DNA from: an uncultured Clostridia bacterium
GTDB lineage: Bacteria; Bacillota; Clostridia; Oscillospirales; Acutalibacteraceae
DNA length: 64,000 nt
Reading direction: 5' to 3'
Assembly (NCBI GenBank): GCA_945787805.1
Contig: CALZID010000001.1
Location: forward strand, 308,946 to 372,945
The number at the start of each line of letters is the position of its first letter. Positions within the stretch are counted from its first letter, which is position 1. Shown here piece after piece: positions 10,590 to 64,000 of this stretch. Below the pieces are notes generated by a model. It was not told the origin of the DNA. It did no database searches and worked only from the letters and a program-made list of their open reading frames with translations. The position numbers and the translations under genes are program-made.

Positions 10590-10609
10590 TCAAAATTAAA
10601 TATTAGTTG

Positions 10610-10715
10610 TCTTCAGGGCGGAGTGCAATTCTCCACCGGTGGTTAAAGTCCACGAGCTGATGCTGAACAGGTGTGATTCCTGTACCGACGGTTATAGTCC
10701 GGATGAAAGAAGATG
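10610..10715 (+). promoter_or_regulatory. FMN riboswitch (RFN element)
   Basis: The conserved blocks CTTCAGGGCGGAGTGCAATT, CCACCGGTGG, GTCCACGAGC, GATTCCTGTACCGACGG and AGTCCGGATGAAAGAAGATG occur in RFN order. FMN binding should favour the downstream terminator and shut off riboflavin uptake. Confidence 0.97.
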
Positions 10716-10738
10716 CAACAATTTTTTCTGTTACATTT

Positions 10739-11448: not shown

Positions 11449-11544
11449 CCCTTATGCAGAGTGGTGGAGGGACCGGCCCTGTGAAACCCGGCAACCTGCT
11501 TTAGTGCAAGGTGCTAATTCCTGCGGATTTTCCGAGATATAAGG
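11449..11544 (+). promoter_or_regulatory. SAM-I riboswitch (S box)
   Basis: The P1 arms are CCCTTAT and ATAAGG. Between them are AGAGTGGTGGAGGGACCGGC, CCTGTGAAACCCGGCAACC and AAGGTGCTAATTCCTGCGG, the S-box consensus blocks. High SAM should stop metK expression. Confidence 0.98.
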
Positions 11545-11557
11545 TTGACTTTACAAG

Positions 11558-12861: not shown

Positions 12862-13077
12862 ATGATGCTTGACAGAATTTCTTTAATTCTTGTTATAATC
12901 GGTGCTATTAACTGGGGTGCAATCGGGTTATTTCAATTTGATATTGTAGCATGGCTCTTTGGCGGTCAGGGCGCAATTATCAGCCGAATAATATACACAG
13001 TTGTCGCATTAGCCGGAATTTGGTGTTTGTCACTTTTATTCCGAAATAACGATGTTCTTGCTTCTGACGAAGCATAA
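12862..13077 (+). CDS. DUF378 (YuzA-like) small membrane protein
   Basis: This is a 71-residue protein with two hydrophobic helices. It carries the DUF378 pattern: LDRISLILVIIGAINWGAIG, then FDIVAWLFGG, then IIYTVVALAGIWCL. Function is unknown for the whole family. An in-frame GTG at 12856 overlaps AAGGAG. The ATG at 12862 (or the next one, at 12865) has proper spacing and is used. The 3' end is directly followed by the structured repeat, and the stop codon lies within the 11-base sequence duplicated at the far side of that repeat. Confidence 0.85.
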   Translation: MMLDRISLILVIIGAINWGAIGLFQFDIVAWLFGGQGAIISRIIYTVVALAGIWCLSLLFRNNDVLASDEA

Positions 13078-13081: not shown

Positions 13082-13124
13082 ACAGGGGCTGTAAAAAAAC
13101 GGAAGTTTTTTTACAGCCCCTGTT
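13081..13124 (+). terminator. Terminator-like hairpin at the 5' end of repeat copy 1
   Basis: Perfect 20-base arms with a GGAA loop. Because each arm contains an A7 or T7 run, it could end transcripts from either strand. It follows the DUF378 stop by 3 bases and is part of the repeat unit. Confidence 0.8.
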
Positions 13125-13239
13125 TGGGGGTTAGGAAAAAATGCGTAGAATGGACAAACTGAGCGATAACAAGGCTTTTGCCTTGTTATCGGTTACCCGA
13201 CGGCGTACAAAGGTACGCCGAGCGGCGAAGTTTGTTCAT
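13082..13239 (+). repeat. Structured dispersed repeat, copy 1 (MITE-like, unclassified)
   Basis: Bases 13126-13235 match 63891-64000 with only four differences in 110. The element has four parts. First is a 5' terminator-like hairpin (13081-13100 against 13105-13124). Second is an outer stem ATGGACAAACT (13150-13160) with AGTTTGTTCAT (13229-13239), including one G-U pair. Inside that are hairpin A (13164-13175 with 13180-13191, TTTT loop) and hairpin B, CGGCGTAC with GTACGCCG around an AAAG loop (13201-13220). The outer stem encloses both hairpins, giving a three-way junction. The right edge of the outer stem coincides with the start of the flanking 11-bp direct repeat. No protein is encoded convincingly. 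The family is not one I recognise. Confidence 0.85.
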
Positions 13240-13250
13240 AGCATAAAACA
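13240..13250 (+). repeat. Right copy of 11-bp direct repeat (possible target-site duplication)
   Basis: Second AGCATAAAACA, immediately after the outer stem of the structured repeat ends at 13239. It is identical to 13071-13081. Confidence 0.6.
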
Positions 13251-13310
13251 TTATTTTTTCTGTTTTGTTTTTTATTACTCTTATGCGATTAAATATTGTT
13301 TTGGGGTATT

Positions 13311-13335
13311 AAAAAACCTTTATATATTGGGTTTT
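13311..13335 (-). terminator. Weak terminator candidate after rqcH
   Basis: On the minus strand AAAACC pairs with GGTTTT and is followed by further T. The stem is only six bases, and it lies about 30 bases past the rqcH stop. Confidence 0.35.
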
Positions 13336-13364
13336 ATGCGGTCTACACTTTTTTTACAATCCCC

Positions 13365-15116
13365 TTATTTTATGCAAAGTTTTTCAATTAGTTCCTTTTT
13401 CGGTGTTACATAAATTGTGTTATATGTGTTATAAATTACTTTGCCGGGCTTTGCGCCAAAAGGCTTTTTGACATTTTTAATCAAAGTGTAGTCAACTGCT
13501 GCCGACGATGAATTTTTGCATTTACTGTAATATGCAGCGATACAAGCGGCTTCATAGATTGCCGTTTCGGTAATTTCTTTTTTGTCGGCAACAATAACGG
13601 TGTGTGAGCCTGTATACTTTTGAATATGCAGCCACATATCATAATTCTTAGCGGTTTTCAGAGTCAATATATCGTTTTGAATATTGTTTCTGCCGACGAG
13701 AATTTTAAATCCGTCACTTGAACAAAACTCCAAGGGCGGTAAAGGTTTTTCTTTTTTATTCTTATTCCCCTTTTTGTGCTTTATATATCCGCTTTGCTCT
13801 AATTCTTCACGAATTTCTGCAATTTCTCGTTCCGACTCGGCACGGGACAGATTATCCAACACAGAATCAAGATATGATAGCTCTTGCTCACCTTCTTCAA
13901 TAAGGCTATGCAGCATTTTTTCGGCATTAACTGCTTTTTTATATTCTTTAAAATACTTTTGAGCGTTTTGCAAAGGGGTTAATGCGGGATTTGCCGGTAT
14001 TTCTATGATATTGTTATTATCATAATAATTCTCTAATTTATAAACAGTTGCTTTTTCATTTAATCTGTATTGATTGGCTGTAATCAATTCGGCAAAAATT
14101 CTTATTTCTTCACGGTTTTCGCTTTTTTGAAGTTCTAATTGTCTGTTATTGATTTTTCTTGATGTTCTTTCAATAGCACTGTTAAGCAGTTTAAATAAGT
14201 CTGCGGCTTTTCTTTTTGTGCGATTGATTTTATCTTTTTCAAAATAGAAGTCATCAAGTAATTCCGATATTGATTCATAATACTTTTTTTCTGCTGAATT
14301 TCCGTATTGACGGATGTCGGTAAAAGAAAAATCAAAGGGTATTCCGTCAACCGAATTCAGTATCACAAGCTCTTTGTTATCAATAATATCGGACTTAATT
14401 GTTTCAATTTCATTTATTAAACGCTCTTTTTCTATCTCAAGAAGCAAACCGACTTGTTTATCGTCAAACACAGTTCGATATGCAATTTCCCTGCCGACAA
14501 TCGGTGAAAAGCCCTCAACAGTTTCTAAAACGGCTTTTGAAAGTAATTTTTCAGGCAATTCAAGAATCTTTTTAACAATATTTTCGGCACTGTCAATATA
14601 AATGTCGCACTTGTTCTGCATTGGCGGTAATTCATATTTAAGCCCAGGCAAGATTTCACGGACAGACGATTTTTCTTCGTCTACCCTTTTTACGGCATCA
14701 ATAATTTTGTAATCTGCGTCACAAAAAATAATATTACTTCGTTGCCCCATAATCTCACAGATTACATAGTATTTGGTTTTGTCACCGATTTCAGTTGTAC
14801 CGTCAAATTCAAAAATTATAATTCTGTCGTTTTTTATTTGCTTAATGCTCACAAGTGTTGCACCGCAAAGCCTTTTACGGAGAAGCATACAAAGCATCGG
14901 CGGAGTTTTAGGGTTTTCAAGATTATATCTTGTTAAATGCACACGGGGGCTTTGTCCGTCACATGACATATAGAGTCTGTAACCGCCGTTTCGGGTACGC
15001 AAAATAAACACCAATTCATTTCGTGTAGGTTGGTGTACTTTTTCAATTTTTGAGCCTAAAATATACTTTTCAAGCTCTTTTTTTACAAGACCGAGTGTAA
15101 TTCCGTCAAGTGCCAT
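13365..15116 (-). CDS. rqcH: NFACT-family protein RqcH (Rqc2 homologue)
   Basis: This 583-residue protein acts in ribosome-associated quality control. It binds obstructed 50S-peptidyl-tRNA complexes and directs C-terminal alanine tailing; older annotations call it fibronectin-binding protein FbpA. It has an NFACT-N domain beginning MALDGITLGLVKKELE, a long charged coiled-coil region (about residues 280-440) and a C-terminal NFACT-R domain with GFKILVGRNNIQNDILTLK and the DMWLHIQ motif. AGAGG precedes the ATG. It follows the Nif3-like gene by 9 bases. The 3' end points toward the structured repeat on the opposite strand. Confidence 0.94.
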   Translation of the reverse strand: MALDGITLGLVKKELEKYILGSKIEKVHQPTRNELVFILRTRNGGYRLYMSCDGQSPRVHLTRYNLENPKTPPMLCMLLRKRLCGATLVSIKQIKNDRIIIFEFDGTTEIGDKTKYYVICEIMGQRSNIIFCDADYKIIDAVKRVDEEKSSVREILPGLKYELPPMQNKCDIYIDSAENIVKKILELPEKLLSKAVLETVEGFSPIVGREIAYRTVFDDKQVGLLLEIEKERLINEIETIKSDIIDNKELVILNSVDGIPFDFSFTDIRQYGNSAEKKYYESISELLDDFYFEKDKINRTKRKAADLFKLLNSAIERTSRKINNRQLELQKSENREEIRIFAELITANQYRLNEKATVYKLENYYDNNNIIEIPANPALTPLQNAQKYFKEYKKAVNAEKMLHSLIEEGEQELSYLDSVLDNLSRAESEREIAEIREELEQSGYIKHKKGNKNKKEKPLPPLEFCSSDGFKILVGRNNIQNDILTLKTAKNYDMWLHIQKYTGSHTVIVADKKEITETAIYEAACIAAYYSKCKNSSSAAVDYTLIKNVKKPFGAKPGKVIYNTYNTIYVTPKKELIEKLCIK

Positions 15117-63847: not shown

Positions 63848-63890
63848 AAAAGAGGCTGTAAAAAAACTTTCGTTTTTTACAGCCTCTTTT
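63848..63890 (+). terminator. Terminator-like hairpin at the 5' end of repeat copy 2
   Basis: AAAGAGGCTGT pairs with ACAGCCTCTTT, then A/T-rich bases form the upper stem. Relative to copy 1, two base pairs changed on both sides, so pairing is kept (C-G to A-T, G-C to A-T). Confidence 0.85.
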
Positions 63891-64000
63891 GGGGGTTAGG
63901 AAAAAATGCGTAGAATGGACAAACTGAGCGATAACAAGGCTTTTACCTTGTTATCGTTTGCCCGACGGCGTACAAAGGTACGCCGAGAGGCGAAGTTTGT
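63849..64000 (+). repeat. Structured dispersed repeat, copy 2 (cut by window edge)
   Basis: This is the same unit as 13082-13239, offset by about 50.8 kb. After the hairpin, 63891-64000 matches copy 1 in 106 of 110 bases. Hairpin A (63929-63940 region) and hairpin B (CGGCGTAC/GTACGCCG) are kept, and the outer stem's right arm is cut 4 bases before its end. It lies in the same orientation, just after a plus-strand gene, as copy 1 does. Confidence 0.85.

Follow-up and report, generated by a model that had tools for sequence, protein, structure and literature searches.

A dispersed, strongly folded intergenic element of Clostridia that is usually preceded by a terminator-like hairpin

The window, that is the whole stretch of DNA that was analysed, comprises 64,000 nucleotides (G000:C1:308946-372945) of a host genome of 1.84 Mb that is distributed over 23 contigs. 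Within it, a gap of 287 bp between a DUF378 gene and a convergent NFACT-like gene holds an element of 238 bp (13127-13364), which runs from a GGGG at 13127 to a CCCC at 13364. The element is preceded by a 42-bp terminator-like hairpin, here named H (13082-13123), which is usual in the family, and its right end abuts the NFACT-like gene, whose stop codon begins at 13365. Two riboswitches are encountered elsewhere in the window, an FMN riboswitch at 10605-10718 and a SAM riboswitch at 11449-11545, and both are ordinary.

An earlier reading made from the sequence alone (the sequence-only reading) had described a dispersed repeat of 158 bp in two copies, 13082-13239 and 63849-64000, each a few bases after a plus-strand stop codon. 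Both copies are present at these positions, with 106 of 110 positions identical from the TTTGGGGG link onward, and both start a few bases past a plus-strand ORF (ORF ends at 13077 and 63842). Aligned over their full stretch, they are identical at 141 positions and differ by 11 mismatches and 6 gaps, with gaps at the ends counted; contig C1 and the window stop at the same point, which truncates the second copy. As the whole repeat, 158 bp is too short, since other complete copies share a right end about 125 bp further on. The front hairpin, the outer stem and hairpins A and B all match the layout that had been proposed, which missed a stem lying outside these (P1) and a further stem (P3). No gene is found within the element, as had been noted from the lack of a good ORF. 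The segment 13082-13400 folds into a single closed structure that closes at 13364, with a minimum free energy of -123.5 as compared with -70.3 ± 4.9 for 100 shuffles (z = -10.8). In this architecture P1 joins both ends, hairpins A and B form a three-way junction with P2, and P3 holds a variable loop. The features are as follows:

13082..13123, + strand: H, the terminator-like hairpin with a GNRA-type loop (GGAA), from the sequence and the host copies
13127..13149, + strand: P1 5′ strand, the left end of the element (GGGGTTAGG...GTAGA), from the fold and the comparison of copies
13150..13160, + strand: P2 5′ strand, the outer stem of the sequence-only reading (in alignment A1, described below, 97.3% of cells paired and two-sided changes at 11 of 12 pairs)
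13164..13191, + strand: hairpin A, which varies freely, is mostly paired and is absent in a minimal variant
13196..13225, + strand: hairpin B, the best-conserved part (CCCGA..GTACA..GGTAC..CGAG.GG)
13229..13239, + strand: P2 3′ strand
13241..13249, + strand: P3 5′ strand
13331..13339, + strand: P3 3′ strand
13342..13364, + strand: P1 3′ strand, the right end of the element
63851..64000, + strand: the second copy, with H from about 63851 and the P1 5′ strand from 63892, ending inside the P2 3′ strand

The fold was examined by comparison of copies. Distinct hits with enough flank numbered 131 and were reduced to 55 core stretches, a step at which 28 hits without a recognisable P1 motif were lost. 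Alignment was carried out for 41 of the 55; the other 14, left out by hand before counting, were variants without hairpin A, one copy with a misplaced start (L106) and some of an already represented GC-rich group. Five copies were added by coordinates (L048, L050, and L058, L064 and L073 of genome G045) to give the 46 rows of alignment A1, which are hand-chosen diverse copies with a structure written from L001. In A1, 91.9% of cells pair as against 77.8% when shuffled, and the covariation score is 0.390 versus 0.160 ± 0.008 for shuffled alignments (0 of 500). In slid registers the score is at most 0.130, although this control is biased towards a structure derived from one of the members. The sequence-only reading had looked to many copies with paired substitutions in the stems for its support, and this is what P2 displays across the 46 copies; stem positions that vary without compensation, which would have counted against it, did not appear. 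Hairpin A pairs at 70-81%, in part because the alignment is loose there. Hairpin B barely varies and therefore contributes little information from covariation, and its near-invariance is that of copies that had been found by this very motif.

The two terminal stems were assessed separately. With the right end placed from P1 alone, P3 pairs at 73.7% in 41 copies (about 15 of them with a wrongly placed right end, as judged by eye) versus 59.4% when permuted, with a maximum of 64.5% in 300 permutations. With the end placed from P3 alone, P1 pairs at 86.6% versus 82.2% (maximum 85.2%) in 36 copies, the margin being small because P1 bases vary little. The ends differ from copy to copy yet pair with each other, for example as GCGTAT/ATACGC in L165. 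The P3 loops measure about 7-140 nt where the right end looks reliable; in a sizeable fraction of copies the script placed that end doubtfully or not at all. Cells with G-U outnumber those with A-C by 41 to 3 in P2 and by 21 to 0 in hairpin B, and by 8 to 1 in P2 among 15 representatives of less than 75% identity; in hairpin A, where the alignment is poor, the counts are 18 and 21. This excess marks the + strand, which was also the choice of the sequence-only reading, as the folding strand. The copies share one conserved fold on the + strand, and RNA and single-stranded DNA would both give the observed excess of G-U.

The element family is real, widespread, strongly structured and dispersed. 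In the host genome the core sequence is present at 26 places, many of the copies being near-identical, and the covariance model R1 matches 22 of these; the other four are cut, one in contig C10 and three at the ends of C2, C6 and C19. The element breaks assemblies, in that four host contig ends lie inside copies. Members of the family measure about 150-290 bp. Within the genus, R1 matches 5 of 39 genomes, the four besides the host with 1-2 copies each. BLAST with the element matched 10 of 59 relatives, some by short stretches only, and the BLAST loci contain contig-cut copies in G005 and divergent copies in G010 and G027 that R1 missed; the genus count is for this reason a lower bound, and the element is less patchy in the genus than the model says. 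In G014 a contig breaks off just past an H and the opening bases of an element. A failure to find further copies, which the sequence-only reading had named as an outcome against it, did not occur in the covariance-model search of the host and its relatives.

Beyond the genus, at least 13 copies are present in G045, a genome from another family of the same order. In a sample of the class, scanned with stricter filters and with at most nine candidates scored per genome, 60 of 391 genomes match R1, in 36 of 223 genera; among these carriers, 52 have at least two matches and 35 have at least nine. A DNA pattern for hairpin B was found in at least 118 stretches in named genome contigs, where 79 of 80 titles among the matches listed name Clostridia or groups within, many from animal guts. 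The remaining title names Helicobacteraceae and is taken as a chance hit; three loci (L108, L168 and L191) were likewise dropped as likely chance hits by eye. Plasmid and phage records yielded no match to the host element. Three IMG/VR contigs (L195, L196 and L197) carry copies that look identical in the stretch printed. These are viral-annotated contigs that share flanking ORFs, and from them it appears that phages or prophages may carry the element.

The genomic setting was recorded for 124 copies by mechanical ORF calls of at least 70 codons; only nine of these copies are from the host because copies with the same core were collapsed. Convergent genes flank 34 copies, both genes point leftward at 26 and rightward at 17, one copy lies between two gene starts (1 of the 78 with both neighbours called), and 46 have one or both neighbours uncalled. 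Copies are located at gene 3′ ends, as in the sequence-only reading, whose common direction with the preceding gene is not general: the upstream gene points away in 35 of the 124. The neighbour genes look ordinary, and clustering of 726 ORFs near copies gave no common partner. At the window site, R1 has no match in 15 relatives. In six of these the same gene pair is 20-59 bp apart, the element is absent, and a hairpin is found by eye between the genes or over the stop, differing among the six and from H; in the remaining relatives the gap is larger or holds other genes, or a neighbouring DUF378 gene was not found. With these six short gaps as a guide, H plus the element takes up a position that elsewhere seems to belong to a native terminator.

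Tentatively, and at just short of an even chance, the element can be regarded as a non-autonomous mobile family of Clostridia that is moved in trans, with a RAYT-like Y1 (HUH) transposase as the best candidate enzyme. Movement is suggested by the distribution and by the relatives that are without the element. The folded single strand would be recognised by the trans-acting enzyme, most likely during replication, and H, by terminating transcription, would keep insertions between genes from doing harm; a terminating H would also allow the element to replace a native terminator. That the strand so recognised is single-stranded DNA is suggested by the terminator-like hairpin ahead of the fold, by the upstream genes that point away, and by the link to Y1 genes described below. 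A wider claim is that the element represents a new class, its whole body including the ends being one conserved single-strand fold with an invariant motif, gene-less, trans-mobilised and terminator-swapping, and in this way able to multiply harmlessly between genes; this is doubtful, if a real possibility.

The element may instead encode a functional structured RNA, for example one that is 3′-end derived or protein-binding, and spread as a useful or selfish sequence, which we consider unlikely. An RNA is suggested by the strong covariation with its G-U pairs on one strand, by the internal motif of hairpin B, nearly invariant across diverse copies (albeit copies found by that motif), and by the loops of H. 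Of the + strand loops scored, 18 of 21 in host copies and 8 of 14 at other loci are of the GNRA type, and they point to RNA-level selection, at least for H. However, in 25 of the 26 host copies, by eye, the folding strand is immediately preceded by a terminator-like hairpin, and H would tend to block transcription of that strand. The 35 copies with an upstream gene pointing away and the patchy presence within one genus also argue against a functional RNA, and G-T pairs are expected of single-stranded DNA too.

The sequence-only reading had offered a MITE-like or REP-like element equipped with its own terminator. Its dispersal, pairing ends, lack of ORFs and H agree with this, whereas the lack of target-site duplications, the greater length and a GTAG foot that is not independent do not. 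MITEs usually have target-site duplications. At the borders of H plus element in 20 host copies the mean direct repeat is 0.85 versus 0.99 for shuffled pairing, and palindromic target flanks are not above shuffled pairing in 20 host copies with H; at the border of the element only, raw matches reach 4 bases (6 T in L021) and consist mostly of T runs, in which a short duplication could go unnoticed. A classical MITE, with GGGGTTGTAAAAAA-like ends cut by a DDE transposase in trans, is distinctly unlikely. Terminal inverted repeats are present in the sense that P1 pairs both ends, and there is no ORF and the copies are dispersed, though the ends covary between copies and pair mutually, a property for which independent transposase sites would have no need. 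No target duplication above shuffled pairing is seen in the 20 host copies with H, and one end pattern searched over 785 kb around copies gave matches at 5 loci, all of them lone, with no gene bracketed by a pair.

MITEs are nevertheless closest in kind to the element. As described in PMC3733652, bacterial MITEs such as ERIC, RUP and NEMIS are 70-300 bp, non-coding, folded and next to genes, with pairing ends; in size class, lack of coding, secondary structure, gene-adjacency and pairing ends the element resembles them. It is unlike them in its multi-junction fold, its near-invariant core and its presence in many families of Clostridia. The element is also unlike MITEs in that no target duplication and, near copies, no related insertion sequence were found for it.

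H, probably a terminator, usually travels with the element. Its core pattern is present 27 times in the host and, among 39 genus genomes, elsewhere in G031 (5), G006 (2), G008 (1) and G014 (1); G031, G006 and G008 have both the H core and a model match, and G009 has model matches without H. The arms of H vary by locus and are complementary beyond the core, at 5.65 of 8 positions versus 4.69 expected (20 host copies, 0 of 500 shuffles). A reading in which the activity resides in H, as a mobile or converted terminator, and the rest is a passenger that homologous recombination or template switching carries from one terminator to another is very unlikely: solo H-type hairpins do sit between genes in the host, the H arms of L007, L020 and L025 differ by eye as if from two different copies, and H sits at the site of the native terminator, with GGCTGTA/TACAGCC shared between H and the native hairpin of one relative (L261), but the element follows an unrelated terminator without H in L021, is without H in L051 and L163, and the H core is confined to carriers within the genus.

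To return to a family mobilised in trans, Y1_Tnp matches number five in the host, the highest count among the 36 genomes searched; two of the five fall below the family cut-off. A RAYT-like profile (A2) was built from nine small Y1 proteins, with presence called at E 1e-8. Two members of A2 were compared with the NCBIfam REP-associated transposase model and reach 61-62 bits, below its cut-off of 80; a longer host Y1 protein scores 84.5 bits on this model. RAYT-like genes occur in 32 of the 60 element-positive genomes, as against 38 of the 331 element-negative ones (odds ratio 8.8, p 4e-12), an association that ignores kinship, as carriers and RAYT genes may share phylogeny; the other 28 element-positive genomes have no RAYT match at E 1e-8. 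A RAYT gene as a linked partner was rejected, for an element lies within about 1.5 kb at only 2 of the best 30 RAYT loci, of which 19 belong to carriers. In the host, one RAYT fragment lies immediately next to a copy, and several RAYT genes have, by eye, their own GTAG-type hairpins nearby. Given the rare adjacency, these hairpins and the possibly shared phylogeny, RAYT-like Y1 enzymes are no more than the leading candidate.

According to PMC6006769 and PMC3733652, REP/REPIN sequences with RAYT (TnpA-REP) transposases are extragenic, downstream of genes, hairpin-forming and 20-40 bp in length. By that description the element is similar in being extragenic, 3′ of genes, hairpin-forming and statistically linked to RAYT-like genes, and it differs in its length, in having no conserved GTAG foot and in that RAYT genes are rarely adjacent. 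A REP is a palindrome of 20-40 bp with a GTAG or CGTC foot; the element is about 240 bp, and in most copies ATAG or GTAG precedes P3, its first base being part of a covarying P2 pair (by eye). GTAG-footed GC-rich hairpins of the GTAGGGGCGGG...CCCGCC type were observed upstream of Y1 genes at L311 and L313 and between a Y1 gene and an element at L318; they are apparently ordinary REPs of these Clostridia. Inside RAYT-like genes of the host at L312 and L314, two stretches resemble mutually complementary GC-rich arms, in frame, similar to the REPs inserted in subclass 2.4 RAYT genes that are described in PMC6006769.

Other partners were rejected. TnpB is found in 3 of 60 carriers versus 92 of 331 other genomes, and the reverse transcriptase family RVT_1 in 22 of 60 versus 151 of 331, with neither found in the host. 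An autonomous version with a gene in the P3 loop was set aside on the basis of the reliable loop lengths given above and of the nearby ORFs, which have no shared partner. HEARO/OMEGA RNAs and the guide RNAs of IS605 TnpB are multi-copy structured RNAs on mobile DNA; the element is unlike these in having no Rfam match above threshold and in the rarity of TnpB among its carriers. Group IIC introns resemble the element in inserting just after intrinsic terminators. A group II intron was rejected, as RVT_1 was not found in the host and Rfam gave no match at the element. Rfam 15 gave nothing above the gathering score at the window element or anywhere in 12 further loci, and the six matches elsewhere in the scans are all sub-threshold.

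The end motif of TIRtrons and TIRYT, according to PMC3733652 and PMC6006769, is GGGGWSAS. The ends of the element likewise begin with GGGG, and the host has a 250-aa Y1 protein of TIRYT-like length; its gene has no long flanking inverted repeat. TIRYT ends were rejected because the repeats that flank such a gene in G196 read ACAAGGGGACGGTTCT, a different sequence. At that locus (L322) the Y1 gene is flanked by several ACAAGGGGACGGTTCT repeats that resemble the terminal inverted repeats of TIRtrons.

Among the papers listed in literature searches, no title or abstract opening describes the element; the 3161 candidate RNAs reported in PMC8040213 could include it unnamed. A strongly covarying element in 36 of 223 class genera, often in many copies and with no Rfam match, represents an annotation gap. 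If a mobilising enzyme is found, the element would extend the range of what Y1 or other enzymes can move, and if its product is RNA, it would constitute a widespread RNA class not yet described. The element would also offer a natural case of genes whose terminators have been exchanged.

Two kinds of unusual copies were encountered. A minimal variant (L055, L060, L129, L133, L141 and L194) is without hairpin A and keeps the conserved hairpin B, and its ends pair where read. Copies or partial copies in direct head-to-tail tandem are present at L104, L119, L145 and L087, and in some of this set the first unit is reduced to the right end.
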